Shown piece by piece: positions 4,981-40,943 of a stretch of 64,000 bases of DNA. Below the pieces are notes generated by a model. It was not told the DNA's origin. It was given only the letters and a program-made list of their open reading frames with translations, and did no database searches. A program made the position numbers and the translations under genes. This stretch comes from Corallium rubrum. Its lineage: Eukaryota > Cnidaria > Anthozoa > Scleralcyonacea > Coralliidae. Location: positions 32,128,128-32,192,127 of the forward strand of contig OZ035998.1 in assembly GCA_964035015.1 (NCBI GenBank), in the 5' to 3' direction. Numbering within the stretch: position 1 is the first letter of the stretch; the number at the start of each line of letters is the position of its first letter.

Positions 4981-5636
4981 GGCTAACACTAAAAAGCGAT
5001 ACACGATACAGCGATACAGCGATGCAGCGATACAACGATACAGCGATACAGCGATACAGCGATACAAAATCCGGGGGGGAATTACACATTTCCGTCAAAA
5101 AATCAGGGGGGCGTACACTTGTAAAAATTTTAAGCCGGGGGTAAACTAAGCTGTAACTTGTAAATGTTGTCGCGGATAAGAATTATAGGCACGATTGTTC
5201 GACATGCTTTGAATTATGAAATCTAAATCACAGCAATCTAAATCGCGCTCGCGAATTTTCAAAGCGCTAGCGTTGTATAAAGCAGTATAGCTCAAACAAA
5301 CGGCGAAATCGAGAGAAATGGTTATCGTTCGAAAGGCAACGATCTCATCTTGACAAATAACAAAGGAATAACACCCCGATTTCGGGATCTCCGCGCAATG
5401 ATTGCGTAAAGCGCAATACAAAACAAAATATAACTCGTGGCAATGGTGTTCTTTGATGCTAGGTTTATCTTCGTGTTCGCAAAGATCAACACTATATATA
5501 TAATGACTGCGTCGTGACGTTTCGTAAAGAACACGTGAAACGTCAAGAACACGTGTGCGGGTGATTCATCGCGACTGGAATGTTCACGATAGCGCTGTCG
5601 CTACGGCTTAATTGTTTCTAAATAGTTGTTTCCATC
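4981..5636 (+). repeat. Left terminal inverted repeat of MULE
   Basis: About 656 bp that reappear as reverse complement at 7740-8417. The outer part carries a tandem 8-mer GATACAGC with GATGCAGC and GATACAAC variants, then a G-tract near 5073-5080. The identical 91-codon open frame seen in both arms, running outward, is probably a by-product of the duplicated sequence. Confidence 0.85.
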
Positions 5637-6077
5637 ACACTTCGCCTCGTTTCTTCAACTCACTTCTAGGTGTTTTGAAATCGGAGGAAGAACGCTTACT
5701 CGTGTTTGAACTATTACTTAAAAACGAGTTTGGCAGTTTTACTTTCTAATTATTTGACTAATCTATCGAATTACCTTGCAAAAATAACGTCGTCATCCAT
5801 TCCAGAAAATGCGTCTATCAGATCTCTCTCAATTTAAAATGCAATTGAAAACTGTGTGCCAAAGGATGCCAACAACCTAACCATATGGGTCTTCAGTGTA
5901 GACTGTAGAATGTCATGCAATGACAGTGGCACAGTGCATTCGATTACGAATACGATCCTTCATTTATTAGGTGAGGGACGCCATGGGCGGCGTCAGGATA
6001 TACAAACTGCAATTCTGTAAAAGCGAAGCTAGAATATGGAATATGGATGACCCAGTCTTCTTCGAGACGGTTTTGAA

Positions 6078-6527
6078 ATGTCAAAATATTATTTTGACAC
6101 CAATTCTTCAATGTCTGCCGGTAGCTCTATCGGCATCACAGTTTCTCCACCACAAGATGGTAGGTTCCCGTTTCCAAACCCAACGGCCGGTTCCTACCAT
6201 TTGTACCTATTGGATTTCTGCCACGAGAAAACCCACATTTGTTACGGCTGTGGAGGGCATCTTCGTATACAGGGTCAAATTTTGCCTGCCCCTCACAATT
6301 TAGTAATCGTTTCTCGAATGAAACGACAATATATCGATTCAACGGGACAGACGAAATTGTCACACACGACGCAGCGTGTCTATTTCCACTGCAACAAACG
6401 ATGTGTTGCACTAAAGCAACCGTATTTTATTCCCAGACTCGTAACTGTCCCCGACTGCATCCGAGGAATTCTTACGAGCGCCCACAAGGCATATTTTTTT
6501 AATGAAATGGGTGTACATCTTTTATAG
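6078..6527 (+). CDS. Unassigned cysteine-rich C-terminal protein region inside MULE
   Basis: Up to 149 residues; the true 5' boundary may be a splice acceptor upstream rather than the ATG at 6078. Visible features are PNPTAGSYHLYLLDFC, a CYGCGG knuckle, PAPHNLVIVSRMKR, and FHCNKRCVALKQPYF near the end. The C-x2-C pair and the later H-x4-C-type pair could bind one zinc ion. I have the impression that proteins with this C-terminal arrangement recur in cnidarian genomes, but I cannot name a family. It sits between the long inverted ends of the MULE, so it is either an element protein or a captured host exon. It lacks any recognisable catalytic domain. Confidence 0.5.
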   Translation: MSKYYFDTNSSMSAGSSIGITVSPPQDGRFPFPNPTAGSYHLYLLDFCHEKTHICYGCGGHLRIQGQILPAPHNLVIVSRMKRQYIDSTGQTKLSHTTQRVYFHCNKRCVALKQPYFIPRLVTVPDCIRGILTSAHKAYFFNEMGVHLL

Positions 6528-6604
6528 TTTAATTTCAAATTAACTACTGAATTACAGTTATACTAATTCATTGTCTCCTTCCGAGTAACATTGGCATTGC
6601 AGAG

Positions 6605-6801
6605 TTACAGCGTGCCCAGTCTAACCGAGGTCACAAGGAGTTTCATAATGTCAATGAGCAGGAAAAATTGGGAGTGCCGTGTAGGAAATTATAACAGATG
6701 TCTTTCATCGTTTTAAAACTATTGTGTTGAAGTTGCTCTTTAGTAGTAGATAATGCATGGGCCTACAGTAACCTCGGTTAATTAGACTGGACGCGCTGTA
6801 A
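6605..6801. mobile_element. 197-bp MITE inside MULE
   Basis: TTACAGCGTGCCCAGTCTAA at the left pairs with TTAGACTGGACGCGCTGTAA at the right; the pairing continues into the ACCGAGGT block. No open frame. Confidence 0.65.
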
Positions 6802-7299
6802 TGATTATTGGATACTATTGTAAAGGAAATGTAAAAAACTCTGTAATTGACACTTGCACTAATACTAGACTTTACAGATCATGCAATTTTGATCACTTTT
6901 CATTCAGACCAGTTAAAAAGCATTAATTGTATGTTATTTTATTAACCATTCTCATTTGCCTAAGGTGTTATGTTGAATATTGGGGACTTGCGACCAATTA
7001 TCCTATTACTGTTTAAGAACGAAATTAAATGTGTAAAATAGGCTTTAACGACGTTACAAAAAGTCAATTAAACTTCGATATAAACACTCAGTTGTCCTTC
7101 AGCTAAATGACGTTGAGCCACTGCTGTTAAGTTGAGAAAAGTTATCTGATCACCCCAGCTGGCAATCGAACGCACTGAGGTCTCTTGCTTAACCGTAGCA
7201 CCACCCTTCACCTCCCCAACTATTGGGAGAGCTCGAGAGAGCATGCGCAGTTAGAATAATCCATATGTTCTAGTTCATCAAATCACCCTAATCACCCGC

Positions 7300-7650
7300 A
7301 GACATTGAACGCAAAATTAATGTTGACCTCGACAACGTTCATAAATGGCTTACAGCCAACAAACTAACTTTGAATAAAAAAACCCCAGAATACATGATTA
7401 TTGGATCTCGACAAAGATTAAATATATCCAAGAATCCTCATATTGTCATTGGCGACCAAACGATAAAACGGGGCCCAGACAAAAAGGTGTTAGGGGTCAT
7501 CACCGACGAGCAGAACACAATGTAAAAATATTTCGAAAAACATTTAAGAAGAGCAAAACAATTTGCGACACAAGACGCCTTAGTAACAATGTATAATTCA
7601 CTTGTCTTGCCACACTTCACTTATTGCGCGACTGTGTGTGCAGGAGCCTT
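7300..7650 (+). pseudogene. Non-LTR retrotransposon reverse transcriptase fragment
   Basis: Reading one frame gives the thumb-proximal part of a LINE reverse transcriptase: VHKWLTANKLTLNKK, EYMIIGSRQRL, KVLGVITDEQNT, then a stop, then the YNSLVLPHFTYC block. The order and spacing match CR1/RTE-like elements, with a shortened segment between the last two blocks and an in-frame stop near 7525. It is a dead fragment lying directly inside the right arm of the MULE, so the MULE carries or was hit by LINE sequence. Confidence 0.8.
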
Positions 7651-7739
7651 CTTTGACGTCGATGTGATTGACTTGCCTGTATAATCCTTATCCTGTTGTC
7701 AACTCAGCCTTGGAAACCGACCAATTTAGCTCGAAGATC

Positions 7740-8417
7740 TGATGGAAACAACTATCTAGAAACAATTAAGCCGTAGCGACAGCGCTATCGTGAACATTCC
7801 AGTCGCGATGAATCACCCGCACACGTGTTCTTTACGAAACGTCACGACGCAGTCATTATATATATAGTGTTGATCTTTGCGAATACGAAGATAAACCTAG
7901 CATCAAAGAACACCATTGCCACGAGTTATATTTTGTTTTGTATTGCGCTTTACGCAATCATTGCGCGGAGATCCCGAAATCGGGGTGTTATTCCTTTGTT
8001 ATTTGTCAAGATGAGATCGTTGCCTTTCGAACGATAACCATTTCTCTCGATTTCGCCGTTTGTTTGAGCTATACTGCTTTATACAACGCTAGCGCTTTGA
8101 AAATTCGCGAGCGCGATTTAGATTGCTGTGATTTAGATTTCATAATTCAAAGCATGTCGAACAATCGTGCCTATAATTCTTATCCGCGACAACATTTACA
8201 AGTTACAGCTTAGTTTACCCCCGGCTTAAATTTTTTACAAGTGTAAGCCCCCCTGATTTTTTGACGGAAATGTGTAATTCCCCCCCCCCCTCCGGATTTT
8301 GTATCGCTGTATCGCTGTATCGCTGTATCGCTGTATCGCTGTATCGCTGCATCGCTGTATCGTTGTATCGCTGCATCGCTGTATCGCTGTATCGTGTATC
8401 GCTTTTTAGTGTTAGCC
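7740..8417 (-). repeat. Right terminal inverted repeat of MULE
   Basis: Reverse complement of 4981-5636. It is slightly longer (678 bp) because the terminal GTATCGCT 8-mer array has more units (about 8290-8405) and the C-tract at 8280-8290 is longer. The tandem end array therefore varies between the two ends of one element. Confidence 0.85.
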
Positions 8418-8767: not shown

Positions 8768-8930
8768 GATGGATGTGTATTTTTGTGTAGATTGTGTTTT
8801 ATGTATGTGCATTTCCACGGTAACTGAACATATTGTGTTTTCTGTACAATATGAAGCAATCATCCAATAGCAACATTTGGGTTCAGTCACTCAACCGTAG
8901 TCGTACTATTTAAATATCTATTAACTGAGT

Positions 8931-9087
8931 ACTGTACTGTACTGTACTGTACTGTACTGTACTGTACTGTACTGTACTGTACTGTACTGTACTGTACTGT
9001 ACTGTACTGTACTGTACTGTACTGTACTGTACTGTACTGTACTGTACTGTACTGTACTGTACTGTACTGTACTGTACTGTACTGTAC
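8931..9087. repeat. (ACTGT)n pentanucleotide microsatellite
   Basis: About 31 almost perfect repeats of ACTGT. The open frames it generates on both strands are artefacts of the repeat. Confidence 0.97.
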
Positions 9088-9114
9088 ATATATGTTATTG
9101 ACCGAGCGTGAGGT

Positions 9115-9410
9115 CCGTACAGAAGGATATTGGTCGAGTTCTTTTTTCGCTAAAAATATTATTGGTAGAAGGTCGATAATTCTAAAACACATTGGTTTCT
9201 TCATTGTCGTGATGTGTAAGAATGTTTAGACCGAATTTCCTGGTGGATCACAGTGTTAAAAGAACTTGGACGTACGTTTGTCGAACAGCGGCCGGAAAGA
9301 TCTTGCAGTTGCAGGCCTCTCAAAACTGGGATCAGTCCCCATTTTGTTTACGGTATCTGGCAGGCCCTCTCAAAAGTGTGACCTGTCCATATTATGTAAA
9401 TTTCTTCAAG
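9115..9410 (-). repeat. Fragment of MITE family found inverted at 44191-44974
   Basis: Shared blocks include CCTGGTGGATCACAGTGTTA, GTACGTTTGTCGAACAGC and GCAGGCCCTCTCAAAAGTG, all present in reverse complement at 44195-44505. Only one end of the family is kept here. Confidence 0.8.
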
Positions 9411-10480: not shown

Positions 10481-11074
<594 letters not shown>

Positions 11075-11450: not shown

Positions 11451-11452
11451 TA

Positions 11453-13203
11453 CACGCGTAAAAATCTCACAAGTTGTTACAGCATTGTTGCCTGAACAAT
11501 GCTGTAACAACTTGTTATCATATGTGAACAACATTGATAAATGAACAACATTGTTCATCATTGTTTCAACAAGTTGTTACAGCTTGATGAAACAACAACC
11601 GTTGTTCACGCATGTTGCAACAACCGAAGAACGTGTTGATACATCAACCATGTTCACCATTGTTGTAACAATGTTGTTCATCATTGTTATTTCATCATGT
11701 CATAACAACATGTTCCATCATGCATGAACAACGTTGTCGAATCAACAAGTTGTTTTTTCGTTGTTCCAACAGTCGTGAACAAGTTGTTCCTTCAACAACT
11801 TGTTACAGCATTGTCACTGTTCGTGAACAAACACGCGAGGAGACTATGGACCACGGTCACGTGAAGATCACGCGTAATCTCACGTGAGCATAGTTCATTT
11901 GAACTTTGCTCCTTGACGGAACAACAGCGGGCATCGTTGAAACGATGTGTTGAAACGGGTTTCCCACTGGTTTTTCCCTCGTTTTATTTTCCCTTTGCTG
12001 CACTGCCATTGGACTGAGGAATAGTCTTCTGTATGAACAAATCACTTGGTAAAACTTTGTCAAGATTAGACTGGCATACACTAAGTTTATCCATCTCAAA
12101 GAGGTAAGAATATAAATACATTATTAAATAACTTCAATGTTATTTTAGCTCGTTGGCATTGCTATAAATGCTATCATTAATTAATACATGTCCCTTCTCT
12201 CATTTTGTTTCCAGCTTAAAACCCAAGAGAAAGCAAAGAATTTTAGGTAAGTTTATTTGTTCGCACTGTTCAATACTGTCAGTAGAAATAGTAAATTTTT
12301 ATACGATACACAACTGCAAATTTAACTGTCAAAACGAGAAAAGACACTTTATACTTTGGAATATTAATGTTCTTCTGTCAAATATAGTTTATCGTTCCTC
12401 GTTTGTTTTTTTAGAAAGCACATGTGAACTGGAGTATATTAGCTTATTTACAAAAAGGTAAGATATGTTAAAAAGCCTCAAAAATGTTTACTAAAAATAT
12501 GTTTACGTTTTGTTTTCTTCCATCCGCGAAATTAGTCGGAATGCTGATCTTTTGGCTTTATTGAGGCAAAGGTGAAAGAATTTTTGTTTACACTATTTCA
12601 AAGCAGAAAGTTATTAACCTAAACCTTTGTTTTTCTTCTTAAATTTTTTATGTATAAACTATAGTTGTGGGAGTTAAATAATATCAATGAAAATGGAAAT
12701 GGAGAAGAACTGAAAGCGCCGCCAGAGAACCGGGGAAAACTGGAGGATACGTGAGACTTTGTATTCAAATTATAACTTCAATAAACGTTTTTTAAAAATT
12801 CATGGATGTGTTTGCGTGATATCTTCGTCTTCAATAATAGTGATATTAATATTTTTTGTGATTTTATAAGAAAATTAATAAGCGAGACAACCGGGGGGTG
12901 CACAAAAAAACAAGAATTTAACGGATAGATATCATATTGTAACATGTTGTTTTAACAACTTGTTCACAAATGTTAATTTATCATGCTGGAACAATGTTGT
13001 TGTATCATGCATGTAACATCATGTTGGAACAACTTGTTCACGTCTGTTGGTTCATCAGGCGTGAACAAGCATGTTGGAACATATGGTAAACAACTTGTTG
13101 ACAACATGTTCACGGCGAGCAGCACAACATTGTTCACGGCTGTCGAGAACAACTTGTTCACGTCTGTCAACAACCGTGAACAAGTTGTGCGTTTTTACGC
13201 GTG
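11453..13203. mobile_element. 1751-bp TA-flanked element, copy 1, with spliced mini-gene
   Basis: Inverted ends CACGCGTAAAAA/TTTTTACGCGTG are bounded by TA on both sides (11451-11452 and 13204-13205). Removing the element with one TA joins the Penelope reading frame (VLSA|YLDNT), which confirms the boundaries and the 2-bp duplication. Both subterminal zones (11465-11830 and 12945-13190) are packed with TTGTTC/GAACAA and AACAAGTTGTT palindromic motifs. The middle holds a five-exon ORF. A second copy lies at 36893-40941 in the opposite orientation. TA duplication suggests a Tc1/mariner-like or similar mechanism, but the end sequence does not match a family I know and no transposase is present. 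Confidence 0.85.
12033..12677 (+). CDS. Predicted spliced ORF (5 exons, 64 codons) in TA-flanked element
   Basis: Five short exons join in one frame: 12033-12103, 12215-12246, 12415-12457, 12536-12571 and 12665-12677. Every intron starts GT (GTAAGAAT, GTAAGTTT, GTAAGATA, GTGAAAGA) and ends AG after a T-rich tract. The phases are compatible throughout and a TAA ends the last exon, with AATAAA at 12780-12785. The product begins MNKSLGKTLSRL, has a basic PKRKQR patch and ends LLALLRQSCGS. An in-frame TGA lies 18 bases upstream of the ATG, although an earlier exon is possible. In the second copy all splice sites are kept but the ATG reads GTG. I do not recognise the protein; it could be a captured host gene fragment or an element protein. 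Confidence 0.5.
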
Positions 13204-13674
13204 TACTTGGATAACACACAAAACAACACATGCAACTGCAAGAAGAAAGAGCGATGTCCACTGGAAAATATCTGCCTATCATCAAGTCTTGTCTACAATG
13301 CACGCATCACTATAGATGAAAACACCCAAGGGAAGAATTACATAGGATTAACAGAAGGTACGTTTAAACAAAGATACACCCAGCCCAAGCATTCATTCAA
13401 ACACGAAAAACACGCTAACAACACCGAGCTTTCAAAGCACATATGGAAACTAAAGAACGGCAGAAAACAGCACAACATCAAGTGGTCAACAATCACCAAA
13501 GCTAAACCCTACAACAACATGAGATCCAAACGATGCAACCTATGTCTAGCAGAGAAGCTTTGTATCGTAAAAGCCAAAAGCGACAGCCTTCTAAACAAAA
13601 GAGACGAATTGATTTCTAAATGCCGACGCGAGAACAAATTCTACACTATGAACTACAAGAACGAAGTCACTTAA
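13204..13674 (+). CDS. Penelope-like element endonuclease region (GIY-YIG), C-terminal part
   Basis: The open frame contains the cysteine-rich linker CNCKKKERCPLENIC and then a GIY-YIG-type nuclease region. Visible blocks are the core NYIGLTEGTFKQRY, the conserved TELSKHIWKLK, NLCLAEKLCI and the terminal LLNKRDELISKCRRENKF. These are typical of endonuclease-positive Penelope-like retroelements, which use the domain to nick the target. The reading frame itself is intact to a TAA at 13672-13674. It is cut off from its reverse transcriptase by the TA-flanked element just upstream, and the upstream part is frameshifted, so it is not an active element. Confidence 0.88.
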   Translation, partial: YLDNTQNNTCNCKKKERCPLENICLSSSLVYNARITIDENTQGKNYIGLTEGTFKQRYTQPKHSFKHEKHANNTELSKHIWKLKNGRKQHNIKWSTITKAKPYNNMRSKRCNLCLAEKLCIVKAKSDSLLNKRDELISKCRRENKFYTMNYKNEVT

Positions 13675-36004: not shown

Positions 36005-36890
36005 AAGCATAACGGGAAGATAACATAGGCTGGGACTGTTTTTTCATGTTTTGAGTTCATTATGTTTAGACACTACGTTTAGGATTATTGTCAAGGATAA
36101 TCGATAAGCAAAGTTTATCCTTATAGAATACCTAAACATTAAAAAGTTTCTGAAATCAGAAATGTTATGTTTATTACGGCTGTTTCAGCCTCATGTTATA
36201 AATGAACTACGTTTTATCCCGACTGGCTCATTTCCCTCTCTGATAACCTATGGAGGTATTCAGTCTCCGAGTGCCCTCTAGCTAGTTGCTGTTGATCTAT
36301 TTGAAAAATAGGGAAAACAAAATACTTCAAATATTTTATAAAAAATATAACTATACTAAATATTCTGTATATGACTACAAACGATGACTTGATGTCAAAA
36401 TTAACCTCTTGACCTGATTTTGAAAACAAGAACAGGAGGAAATAACACTTGATACGTTTGTTGACGCAGGTTGACGTTATTTTAATTTGGCAAGCATAAA
36501 AATTGGAGAGTCGCACAGGTGCGTCATTACATGCATGGTGTCAATGTTATTAAATAACAAAATATTTTGTTTGCCTCAGAATTTAAAGTGTCTGTTAAGT
36601 GAAAAATTCCAATAAAAATTAAATTAAACTAGAATTAAATATAGAAAACGTGATAATTGAGTGATGACTGAGCTGGCAGAAGATCAACGGCCTTTTTATT
36701 ATTTTACTCTAACACCAGACTATCAGTATCTAACACAAAGGTATCTAACACCAGACTATCAGTATACCCTGTTTTAGGACCGAAGAGAAACTAGAAGCAG
36801 GGTAATTTTTTTAGTTACCTCAAAATGGTTTAAGATATTTTTTACCCAACCCACTTCTTAAATATTAACAAGACACCCGCTACACGCGTA
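36005..36890. other. Intergenic, nothing recognised
   Basis: AT-rich. A TCTAACACCAGACTATCAGTAT direct repeat is at 36707-36767. No gene. Confidence 0.4.
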
Positions 36891-37146
36891 AAAACGCACA
36901 ACTTGTTCACGGTTGTTGACAGACGTGAACAAGTTGTTCTCGACAGCCGTGAACAATGTTGTGCTGCTCGCCGTGAACATGTTGTCAACAAGTTGTTCAC
37001 CATATGTTCCAACATGCTTGTTCACGCCTGATGAACCAACAGACGTGAACAAGTTGTTCCAACATGATGTTACATGCATGGTACAACAGCATTGTTCCAG
37101 CATGATAAATTAACATTTGTGAGCAAGTTGTTAAATCAACATGTTA

Positions 37147-38308
37147 CTAGAAATACATGAACGCAACAACCCCTCGCCCGCTTTATATGCATTTTTTAAC
37201 CCCCCTACCCCCCCCCCCCCCCCCCCTAATTTCTGTTTTATGTTGTATTATTAAAATGACACACAGATCAGAAAACATCCCAGAAAATTAGTTAGCAAGG
37301 TTCATCTGTAGTCATGTATTGACACACCGAAAGAACATGCAAAGTCAATATTAAAAAAAACAAACAACGAGATGAAGCAAATGACAAATTTTCATTCAAA
37401 AATATATAATATATAAACAATGGCCAAGAAAAGACACAATGTCAACGTCCTAGCGTTCAAAGACAATTCTAGACAAAATATTATTTATATTAATTTTCAT
37501 TTTCAAGATTTCTTCCGATTTAACTCAGCTAAACTGGTAAATTGTAATACGAATCTCCTACCGTTAAACTTTCTTCTGCTTTTGTCTCCACAAACACTGG
37601 CAATTCAGTCGTCTTTTCGGATTGTTTTTCTCGTTCGCGGTTTCTTACTTTTTTTCGTTGTTGACACATAACTTAAATTAAATATGACAAGGCATCATTT
37701 AGTTCTCTTCATGATCTAAAAAGCCGTTTGTTTCAAAATTTCTTCATTGTTCCCTCTCGAGTTATGTAGAATACACCAGAGCAAAATTCTTTACCGGCTT
37801 TGAACTGATTCAGGACACATCCTTCTTCTTTCAGTTTTACATTTCGGTTGGCATCGTTTTCGGTCTTTTTCGTATTAATTTTTAGGCTTTTTCTAGTGGT
37901 ATTGTTGTCTTTTTCTCGCTGCCACATCTCTTGTTAGTCTTCCTTCTTTGGTCTTTTTCCATAGTAATTTAATGTACATTTTAGCATTTTAGCTGAAACC
38001 ATATTTTCTGGCAAAGATATCTTTCGTCTTGATCGTTGAAAAACTATTTCGTAATCCAACCGAACTTATAAATTATATATTTGCTGACGTAAATTTAAAT
38101 AATTTGAATAATTTAACAGGTTAGTTACCAGTACCCTGCTATTCGAACTGCGCAAGTTGTGGATTTGATAACATATATATATATATACAAACAGGTTTCA
38201 GAATTGCTTTCGGCTTTTCATCTCGCGTGTAAAGTGGACTCCACGCACGTCGAGATTAGCACCCTCACCCGGGCTCCGGGCCTTCGGCCCTACGCCCGGG
38301 CTCGGGGA
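37147..38308 (-). mobile_element. Helitron-like insertion 1 (1162 bp)
   Basis: Comparison with copy 1 of the TA-flanked element gives exact boundaries and no target duplication. Read on the minus strand it starts TCCCCGAGC and ends CTAG followed by T, as Helitrons do (5' TC, 3' CTRR, no duplication). The 5' end has strong GC stems (GGGCCGAAGGCCC); a clear hairpin just before CTAG is missing. A poly-C tract is at 37207-37227. A short minus-strand frame at 37733-37927 has no recognised domain. No helicase. Confidence 0.72.
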
Positions 38309-38474
38309 CAATATGATATCTATCCGTTAAATTCTCGTTTTTTTGTGCACCCCCCGGTTGTCTCGCTTATTAATTTTCTTATGAAATCACAAAAAATATT
38401 AATATCACTATTATTGAAGACGAAGATATCACGCAAACACATCCATGAATTTTTAAAAACGTTTATTGAAGTTA

Positions 38475-39610
38475 CTAGAAATACATGAACGCAACAACCC
38501 CTCGCCCGCTTTATATCCATTTTTACACCCCCCACCCCCACCCCTAATTTCTGCTTTTTGTTGTTGTATTAATCACACATCAGACAACATCCAGAAAATT
38601 AGTTAGCAAGGTTCATCTGTAGTCATGTATTGACACACCGAAAGAACATGCAATGTCAATATTAAAAGAAAACAAGAGATGAACCAAATGACAAATTTTC
38701 ATTCAAAAAATTATATTAATAGTGGCCAAGAAGAGACCCAAATCACACAATGTCAACGTCCTAGCGTTGAAAGCCAATTCTAGACAATATATTATTTATA
38801 TTAATTTTCATTTTCAAGATTTCTTCCGTTTTAACTCAGCTAAACTGTTAAATACGAATCTCCTACCGTTAAACTTTCTTCTACTTTTGTGACCACGAAC
38901 ACTGCCAATTCAGTCTACTCTTTTCGGATTGTTTTTCTCGTTCGCGGTTTCTTACTTTTTTCGTTGTTGACAAATAAATATGACAAGGCATCATTCAGTT
39001 CTCTTCATGATCTAAAAAGCCGTTTGTTTCAAAATTTCTTCATCGTTCCCTCTCGAGTTATGTAGAATACACCAGAGCAAAATTCTTTACCGGCTTTGAA
39101 CAGTTTCAGGACACATCCTTCTTCTTTCAGTTACACTTCGGTCGGCATCGTTTTCGGTCTTTATCGCATAAATTTTTAGGCTTTTTCCAGTGGTTTTAAG
39201 TCGTATTTATTGTTGTCTTTTTCTCGCTGCCACATCTCTTCTTAGTCTTCTTTCTTTGGTCTTTTTCCATAGTAATATTAATGTACATTTTAGTTGAAAC
39301 CATTTTTTCTGGCAAAGATTTTTTTCGTCTTGATCTTTGAAAAACTATTTCGTATTAATCCAACGAACTTATAAATTATAATTTGCTGACGTAAATTTAA
39401 ATAATTTGAATAATTTAACAGGTTAGTTACCAGTACCCTGCTATTCGAACTGCGCAAGTTGTGGATTTGATAACATATATATAGATATATAAACAGGTTT
39501 CAGAATTGCTTTCAGCTTTTTATCTCGCGTGTAAAGTGGACTCCACGCACGTCGAGATTAGCACCCTCACCCGGGCACTGGGCCTTCGGCCCTCCGCCCG
39601 AGCTCGGGGA
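38475..39610 (-). mobile_element. Helitron-like insertion 2 (1136 bp)
   Basis: Closely similar to the insertion at 37147-38308 along its whole length, with the same TC...CTAG ends and again no target duplication. On the minus strand it is inserted between A and T. Only 166 bases of the host element separate the two copies. It falls between the last exon and the AATAAA of the mini-gene in this copy. Confidence 0.75.
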
Positions 39611-39704
39611 TAATTTTAATACAAAGTCTCACGTATCCTCCAGTTTTCCCCGGTTCTCTGGCGGCGCTTTCAGTTCTTCCCATTTCCATTTTCATTGATA
39701 TTAT

Positions 39705-40352
39705 TTAACTCCCACAACTATAGTTTATGCATAAAAAAATTTAAGAAGAAAAACAAAGGTTTAGGTTAATAACTTTCTGCTTTGAAATAGTGTAAACAAA
39801 AATTCTTTCACCTTTGCCTCAACAAAGCCAAGAGATCAGCATTCCGACTAATTTCGCGGATGGAAGAAAACAAAACGTAAACATATTTTTAGTAAACATT
39901 TTTGAGGCTTTTTAACACATCTTACCTTTTTGTAAATAAGCTAATATACTCCAGTTCACATGTACTTTCTAAAAAAAATAACGAGGAACGATAAACTATA
40001 TTTGACAGAAGAACATTAATATTCCAAAGTATAAAGTGTCTTTTCTCGTTTTGACAGTTAAATTTGCAGTTGTGTATCGTATAAAAATTTACTGTTTCTA
40101 CTGACAGTATTGAACAGCGCGAACAAATAAACTTACCTAAAATTCTTTGCTTTCTCTTGGGTTTTAAGCTGGAAACAAAATGAGAGAAGGGACATGTATT
40201 AATTAATGATAGCATTTATAGCAATGCCAACGAGCTAAAATAACATTGAAGTTATTTAATATAATGTATTTATATTCTTACCTCTTTGAGATGGATAAAT
40301 TTAGTGTATGCCAGTCTAATCTTGACAAAGTTTTACCAAGTGATTTGTTCAC
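39705..40352 (-). pseudogene. Second copy of the spliced 64-codon ORF, start codon lost
   Basis: All five exons and all GT/AG sites of the 12033-12677 ORF are present on the minus strand, ending with the same TAA (39705-39707). In about 195 coding bases I count five differences. Three are synonymous (AGC/AGT, CTT/CTC, TTA/TTG), one changes Ser to Asn, and the ATG is GTG (40350-40352). The 3' side is separated from its AATAAA by a Helitron-like insertion. Confidence 0.5.
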
Positions 40353-40943
40353 ACAGAAGACTATTCCTCAGTCCATTGGCAGTGCAGCAAAGGGAAAATA
40401 AAACGAGGGAAAAACCAGTGGGAAAACCCGTTTCAACACATGAAAACATCGTTTCAACGATGCCCGCTGTTGTTCCGTCAAGGAGCAAAGTTCAAATGAA
40501 CTATGCTCACGTGAGATTACGCGTGATCTTCACGTGACCGTGGTCCATAGTCTCCTCGCGTGTTTGTTCACGAACAGTGACAATGCTGTAACAAGTTGTT
40601 GAAGGAACAACTTGTTCACGCCTGTTGGAACAACGAAAAAACAACTTGTTGATTCGACAACGTTGTTCATGCATGATGGAACATGTTGTTATGGCATGAT
40701 GAAATAACAGCGATGAACAACATTGTTACAACAATGGTGAACATGGTTGATGTATCAACACGTTCTTCGGTTGTTGCAACATGCGTGAACAACGGTTGTT
40801 GTTTCATCAAGCTGTAACAACTTGTTGAAACAATGATGAACAATGTTGTTCATGTATCAATGTTGTTCACATATGATAACAAGTTGTTACAGCATTGTTC
40901 AGGCAACAATGCTGTAACAACTTGTGAGATTTTTACGCGTGTA

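Follow-up and report, generated by a model that had tools for sequence, protein, structure and literature searches.

A long non-autonomous DNA transposon with a predicted spliced transcription unit in Corallium rubrum

The window analyzed here, a stretch of 64,000 nucleotides from Corallium rubrum, contains an insertion of 1751 bp at positions 11453-13203 (Table 1). The left border of this element reads TA/CACGCGTAAAAA at 11451-11464 and the right border TTTTTACGCGTG/TA at 13192-13205; the terminal inverted repeats (TIRs) are identical at 12 of 12 bases, and the outermost bases are CAC...GTG. The inverted ends and the TA duplication had been described in an earlier note on this DNA, and both are confirmed by the copies considered below. 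When the element is excised in silico, a single open frame runs through the joint (...MKVSYGCNQNMASIVRKHNNKVLSAYLDNTQNNTCNCKKKERC...YIGLTEGTFKQR...), and an empty paralogous site at C1:89177020-89177291 spans this joint with 84% identity (query positions 6-300 of 300). The restored reading frame, likewise proposed earlier, thus stands; we take the interrupted sequence to be the C-terminus of a Penelope-like gene with a GIY-YIG-type motif. The downstream ORF at 13201-13674 matched no Pfam family at E≤1.

Table 1. Positions in the window of the element, its predicted transcription unit and a second copy.
Feature	Position	Strand	Basis or remark
Left target TA	11451..11452	.	TA on both sides in 52/55 full copies
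Left terminal inverted repeat CACGCGTAAAAA	11453..11464	+	End word enriched genome-wide
Near-perfect 47-bp palindrome adjoining the left end	11469..11515	.	Self-match of element positions 17-63 to own complement, 89%
Left subterminal region, rich in AACAAC/GTTGTT and TGAACA/TGTTCA repeats	11469..11839	.	Sequence; end similarity to L039/L040
Two TCACGTGA E-box palindromes, possible promoter (putative role)	11857..11887	+	Element positions 405 and 428
Exon 1 (start codon ATG; donor GAG/GTAAGA)	12033..12103	+	Splice scoring, copy alignment
Intron 1	12104..12214	+	Donor 10.1 bits, acceptor 9.3 bits
Exon 2	12215..12246	+	79 genome places, ≤3 mismatches
Intron 2	12247..12414	+	Donor 10.15 bits, acceptor 7.2 bits
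Exon 3	12415..12457	+	Copy alignment
Intron 3	12458..12535	+	Donor 10.3 bits; acceptor weak (-2.1 bits)
Exon 4	12536..12571	+	Copy alignment; extra G in 26/55 copies
Intron 4, weakest of the four	12572..12664	+	Donor GTGAAA 6.6 bits, acceptor -0.4 bits
Exon 5, containing AATAAA and the stop codon of either frame	12665..12800	+	Stop TAA (64-codon) or TGA (90-codon)
Right subterminal repeat region	12931..13191	.	End similarity to L039/L040
Right terminal inverted repeat	13192..13203	-	Sequence inspection
Right target TA	13204..13205	.	Sequence inspection
Second copy, GTG instead of ATG, two internal inserts of ~1.1-1.2 kb	36883..40941	-	Three pieces, 97.7-98.2% identical

Several other features surround the element. 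A long TA microsatellite lies upstream of the Penelope-like gene (10900-11070), and a minus-strand ORF of VQYST repeats is located at 8887-9204. A fold-back element with long inverted arms occupies positions 5000-8400, with repeats resembling CGATACAG strung together at its ends. The stretch 5116-8243 was considered as a relative of our element on account of a TIR-like word, CACTTGTAAAAA, but was assigned to the fold-back element because the inverted arms, as judged by eye, extend beyond this word on both sides. The two inserts in the second copy (~37148-38307 and 38475-39609) resemble each other on visual comparison, and GC-rich words similar to CCCGAGCTCGGG are found close to where they start or stop.

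The earlier note had suggested a search for further copies, and the genome (474 Mb, 312 contigs) proved to be rich in them. When the complete element was used as a DNA query, scoring of the best 40 of 1819 candidates recovered 43 places with a full or nearly full match (96-100% identity), including the element in the window. Exon 2 was found at 79 places with at most three mismatches, and exactly at 66 of these. The end-word pattern TACACGCGTAAAAA had 2061 exact matches genome-wide (1023+1038), compared with seven (6+1) for the reversed control. The abundance of near-identical copies is beyond chance. Reading 63 of the 79 exon 2 places yielded 61 close copies and two diverged relatives, L099 and L100. 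The counts given here refer to the 55 close copies whose best match starts at or before position 20 and ends at or after position 1740; the other six are partial and include the second copy in the window, which is in three pieces. Both ends are complete and flanked by TA in 52 of the 55, the exceptions being two copies that begin at position 17 and one that runs into N at its right end. Only 160 of the 1751 sites are variable, and the mean heterozygosity per site is 0.5-2.1%, depending on the region, for which reason we consider the family to be young.

The 52 copies with complete ends define a palindromic target consensus, CNNS-TA-SNNG. G or C is present on both sides of the TA in 43 of these, as compared to 12.4% of the 5237 TA sites in the window, with C at -4 in 35 (16.2% in the window) and G at +4 in 37 (15.1%); the 52 sites are partly non-independent, in that six copies abut the end of another copy with a shared TA, and a few flanks look alike. 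Where two ends meet, the resulting sequence, CGTG-TA-CACG, conforms to the target consensus; this could account for the formation of arrays. Copies that directly adjoin each other with one TA in common, forming small arrays, were seen for L086/L087 (C15), L090/L091 (C22) and L092/L093 (C23). Furthermore, L047 and L077 (C8:40596708-40600604) each lack positions 1-16 and seem to lie head to head over the 47-bp palindrome as an inverted dimer.

Elements of other lengths carry the same ends. Pairing of TIRs was based on 100 listed places of the 2061, all on C1 below 55.3 Mb, and among these there were 21 facing pairs less than 15 kb apart. Fourteen of the pairs delimit miniature elements (MITEs) of 411-502 bp; the remaining lengths are 787, 1751-1767 (four pairs), 3835 and 12302 bp. 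The 12.3-kb pair does not represent a single element since its start belongs to a separate short element, L045. Of the short elements, three (L041, L042 and L045) were examined, and they match both ends of our element.

The interior of the element contains sequence signals expected of a gene. The five-exon, in-frame model proposed in the earlier note holds as a prediction: the joined exons would encode 64 codons followed by TAA, an AATAAA signal is found at element position 1328 (12780 in the window), and the chain of splice signals exceeds chance, as judged from scoring matrices. In a 760-base sense segment, three donors score above 10 bits, a threshold set after the scores had been seen, and none does so on the antisense strand; three such donors were found in none of 188 other window segments, which cover both strands and overlap slightly, and in none of 400 dinucleotide shuffles. 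The best four-intron chain score was reached by one of the 188 segments, which scored higher, and by 3 of the 400 shuffles; the matrices were taken from general knowledge, untrained on this genome, and the acceptor threshold was loosened, the stricter setting having missed the earlier reader's model. The best chain is identical to that model except for the last acceptor, ending at 12725. Donors above 9 bits are distributed 3:0 between the sense and antisense strands of the element, with a background of 0.23 per kb and strand.

The GT-AG dinucleotides of all four introns are kept in 55 of 55 copies. This retention alone is not significant because the variation is low, and invariance of the eight dinucleotides would be expected by chance about once in five. 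The diverged relative L100 (C25:2075500-2076320) also keeps all four GT-AG introns and the three strong donors, along with the ATG and an open 64-codon frame. In L099 (C15:3250700-3252700), the first two donors are kept while exons 3 and 4 are lost; this relative has three CACGTG boxes, as compared to two in the element, and an AATAAA signal. L099 also contains an inserted stretch (positions 121-270) with a GGTTCGAGTCC word, which we presume to be like a tRNA-derived SINE. The predicted splice and poly(A) signals exceed chance and are retained both in the copies examined and in the diverged relative. A search for the exon 2-3 joint as a processed retrocopy gave no genome place with at most three mismatches, which is uninformative about splicing. 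Between 11300 and 13350, all Rfam matches fell short of the respective gathering score and were dismissed; the highest were to miRNA models on the terminal palindrome and to SNORD111 (27.4 of 46 bits).

The claim that the family carries an expressed micro-gene was not supported. The 64-codon ORF with its ATG is intact in 18 of the 55 copies, and in 22 copies, which form the largest subfamily, it is replaced by a 90-codon ORF with a different C-terminal end. The latter results from an extra G that makes exon 4 one base longer in 26 copies and opens the 90-codon frame in 22 of them. The frame is intact, in one form or the other, in 40 of the 55 copies, and the remaining 15 have a GTG start (5), a deleted start (4) or a frameshift (6), ATG being present in 46. 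A tree of the gene region built with FastTree appears to bring together the copies with the extra G, with two copies without it among them, and to place the GTG copies in a separate subgroup that also includes the second copy in the window. L099 also starts with GTG. The length of the 64-codon ORF weakly exceeds chance: in 2000 shuffles of the 491-base spliced message, an ORF of at least 64 codons arose in 5.0% and one of at least 90 codons in 0.5%.

The substitution patterns in the exons, which the earlier note had proposed to compare, point in two directions. Between the element and L100, seven codons differ, with seven nonsynonymous and no synonymous changes, whereas the changes segregating in codons 1-60 among the 55 copies are synonymous in eight cases and nonsynonymous in seven, where about 25-33% synonymous changes are expected. 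The probability of this excess is 0.018-0.084 for a transition bias of 2-8 and 0.005-0.13 for a bias of 1-20. For the 90-codon frame, there are 11 synonymous and 13 nonsynonymous changes, with about 25% synonymous expected. Exons and introns have diverged to a similar extent from L100 or L099 (Fisher P 0.21-0.33). Gaps in exon 5 between aligned relatives are 6, 9 and 21 bases long, all multiples of three, of which the 6- and 9-base gaps are located in a repeat resembling GAAAATGGA; individual copies or subgroups also have exon gaps of other lengths. Searches for a homolog retrieved seven candidates from the protein collection, none at E≤1, and no Pfam or NCBIfam match at E≤10. A similarity of the 90-residue product to designed armadillo proteins (best E 2.9e-4, or 1.4e-8 with a 37-residue piece) was rejected because the E value is produced by the sum over near-identical repeats; single armadillo repeats in two designed chains scored -2.8 to 6.8 bits, corresponding to independent E values of about 100 or more. 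Taken together, we read these data as indicating that consistent protein constraint is probably lacking, with one weak result, the synonymous excess in codons 1-60, in favor of coding.

Longer relatives with the same ends are represented by L039 (C1:48066326-48070164, 3.8 kb) and by L040, a single locus of about 4.7 kb with a degenerate left TIR. The left end of our element is approximately 73-75% identical to the left ends of these two relatives, and the right end 71-77% identical to their right ends. L039 and L040 have in common a 5' stretch, a poly(A) region and a short region around an ATG, 34 bases long with 85% identity, and their donors above 9 bits are also biased toward one strand (sense:antisense 5:0 in L039 and 3:1 in L040). 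The 5' and 3' parts of L039 have 90 and 85 candidate places, respectively, of which the best 40 were scored in each case. No match between L039 and the interior of our element rises above shuffles, 74 of 300 of which reach it. A weak match to L040 covers the end of intron 4 and the start of exon 5 (element 1174-1264 against L040 2865-2948, 66%). In two rounds of 300 shuffles each, one and two shuffles, respectively, did as well as this match; it may be a weak sign of common descent.

The earlier note had reported that the element contains no transposase, and we agree: neither the predicted spliced products nor three unspliced ORFs matched any Pfam family over its cut-off, a FLYWCH match to the ORF at 11684-11884 in the left arm being below it (13.9 of 23.6 bits). 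A longer relative with a transposase, for which a search had also been suggested, was not found, either in the ORFs of L039 and L040 or near the 100 listed TIR places on C1. L039 and L040 were rejected as transposase carriers, with no Pfam family over cut-off in six of their longer ORFs; a DUF1440 match in an L039 ORF is below the cut-off. We also used the transposase families PF02992, PF13358 and PF13359 to search for an autonomous partner close to these listed TIRs; a partner from these families would place the element with CACTA/EnSpm, Tc1/mariner or the PIF/Harbinger-ISL2EU-Spy elements with TA duplications, respectively. Of the 71 genome matches to PF02992, three could be compared with the TIRs and none is near one. 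Among the best 150 of 748 candidates for PF13358 (DDE_3), none of 25 comparable matches on C1 is inside a TIR, and one is 2.9 kb outside; among the best 150 of 1078 candidates for PF13359 (DDE_Tnp_4), one of 19 comparable matches is within 12 kb of a TIR, 7.1 kb inside a lone end. As a separate observation, 22 of the 71 EnSpm-type PF02992 matches fall within uninterrupted frames 805-978 codons long, and several score equally; these loci are perhaps recently active CACTA-like elements.

We consider it likely that the element is a long, gene-bearing non-autonomous DNA transposon, the interior of which is a Pol II unit with a message that probably does not serve to make a conserved protein. A transposase made elsewhere would move the element by recognizing the TIRs and the subterminal arrays of 260-390 bp, which are common to the 411-502 bp MITEs and the longer relatives. 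The interior would be transcribed, spliced and polyadenylated wherever the insertion site permits. The predicted spliced unit is more likely to be a transcribed passenger than a working micro-gene because the encoded protein is not kept intact between copies.

The alternative that a protein of 64 or 90 residues aids the element, for example by binding to the subterminal repeats, an accessory role likened to that of TnpA, could draw on the 40 copies with an intact frame, the rarity of ORFs of at least 90 codons in shuffles, the synonymous changes in both frames (8 of 15 and 11 of 24), the open frame of the diverged L100 and the triplet lengths of the three exon 5 gaps. However, all seven codon differences from L100 are nonsynonymous, the start is GTG or deleted in nine copies as well as being GTG in L099 and the second copy in the window, six further copies are frameshifted, the two C-termini are incompatible, no homolog emerged from the protein searches, two of the gaps fall in a repeat, and gaps of other lengths exist. 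We therefore regard a functional micro-gene as improbable. About as little credit is given to the view that the splice pattern is a chance product of an AT-rich non-coding interior. Donor 4 and the last two acceptors are weak, and one window segment scores higher. Against this view stand the three donors above 10 bits on one strand with none on the other; L100 retains all three of them, and L099 the first two.

The origin of the passenger unit is a separate question, and here the data lean both ways: toward acquisition because the interior has little in common with those of same-end relatives, and toward common descent because of the weak L040 match at the border of intron 4 and exon 5. If the exons were left from a multi-exon transposase gene after internal deletion in the autonomous partner, the ends shared with the longer relatives, the ATG-bearing stretch and poly(A) region common to L039 and L040, and the L040 match would all be accommodated. 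Yet the interior of our element has no match to L039 above shuffles, its first exons likewise have none, and no Pfam transposase match was obtained for it; of the comparable matches on C1 to the three transposase families, one is 2.9 kb outside a listed TIR and one 7.1 kb inside a lone end. We find this origin possible, albeit doubtful. That the exons stem from a cellular gene, parts of which were captured as in an animal version of Pack-type elements, is in our opinion also doubtful, and a little more so. Host-like splice, poly(A) and E-box signals, an interior with little in common with those of same-end relatives, and the lack of transposase similarity in Pfam are consistent with capture, but no source locus was seen among the best 150 of 222 and the best 40 of 89 candidates, so that one could have been missed. 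Of the 150 scored protein places, 147 have an element exon 2 no more than 1.3 kb away; for two others this distance is 1.4 and 2.1 kb, and the last, C39:2433982, is a match to exon 1 alone.

A broader and rather speculative idea, which we hold to be unlikely, is that one transposase system mobilizes long families with the same ends and different spliced Pol II units, one of the type in our element and the other of the L039/L040 type. If so, these families would be an animal counterpart of the plant Pack-type elements, and ready-made cassettes of promoter, exons and poly(A) signal would be spread to CNNS-TA-SNNG sites. In general, non-autonomous DNA elements with a spliced unit of their own could supply new exons, promoters and non-coding RNAs. 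The young age of the family, with exon 2 at 79 places, and the existence of a sister type with a different interior (L039, with 85-90 candidates) make both the transcription of the cassette and the origin of the interior testable. Should the unit be silent, this would be an ordinary family of non-autonomous transposons. In our literature search, no publication was recognized as describing the family, which does not imply that it is absent from print.

The element has the characteristics of a non-autonomous TIR DNA transposon, with TIRs, a TA duplication, an empty paralogous site and dispersed copies without a transposase. The TA duplication, short TIR, lack of transposase and sharing of the end word with members of 411-502 bp are reminiscent of Stowaway-like and Tc1-mariner MITEs, from which it differs by having a long member with a spliced-looking unit and a GC-flanked target, CNNS-TA-SNNG. 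Subterminal repeat arrays are a feature of En/Spm elements. Our element has such arrays too, together with CA..TG ends and a 2-bp duplication, and CACTA/EnSpm elements are described as having CA..TG ends and duplications of 2-5 bp, with ESTA being EnSpm-like with TA duplications (PMC12730594). No such transposase could be linked to the ends of our element, none of the three comparable PF02992 matches of 71 being near a listed TIR. The plant Pack-TYPE elements (PMC8903248) are non-autonomous TIR elements with a gene-like interior, but the donor host gene of our element was not found among the best candidates. MITEs, which are non-coding, are usually under 500 bp long (PMC2872659), whereas our element is 1751 bp long, with the same end word on elements of 411-502 bp. 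The same source describes the CMITE elements of corals as non-autonomous, arranged in tandem arrays and linked to piggyBac-like transposons (PMC2872659). The element in C. rubrum differs from these piggyBac-linked elements in its TA target, and resembles them in being non-autonomous and in forming arrays, a likeness of description with the sequences uncompared.
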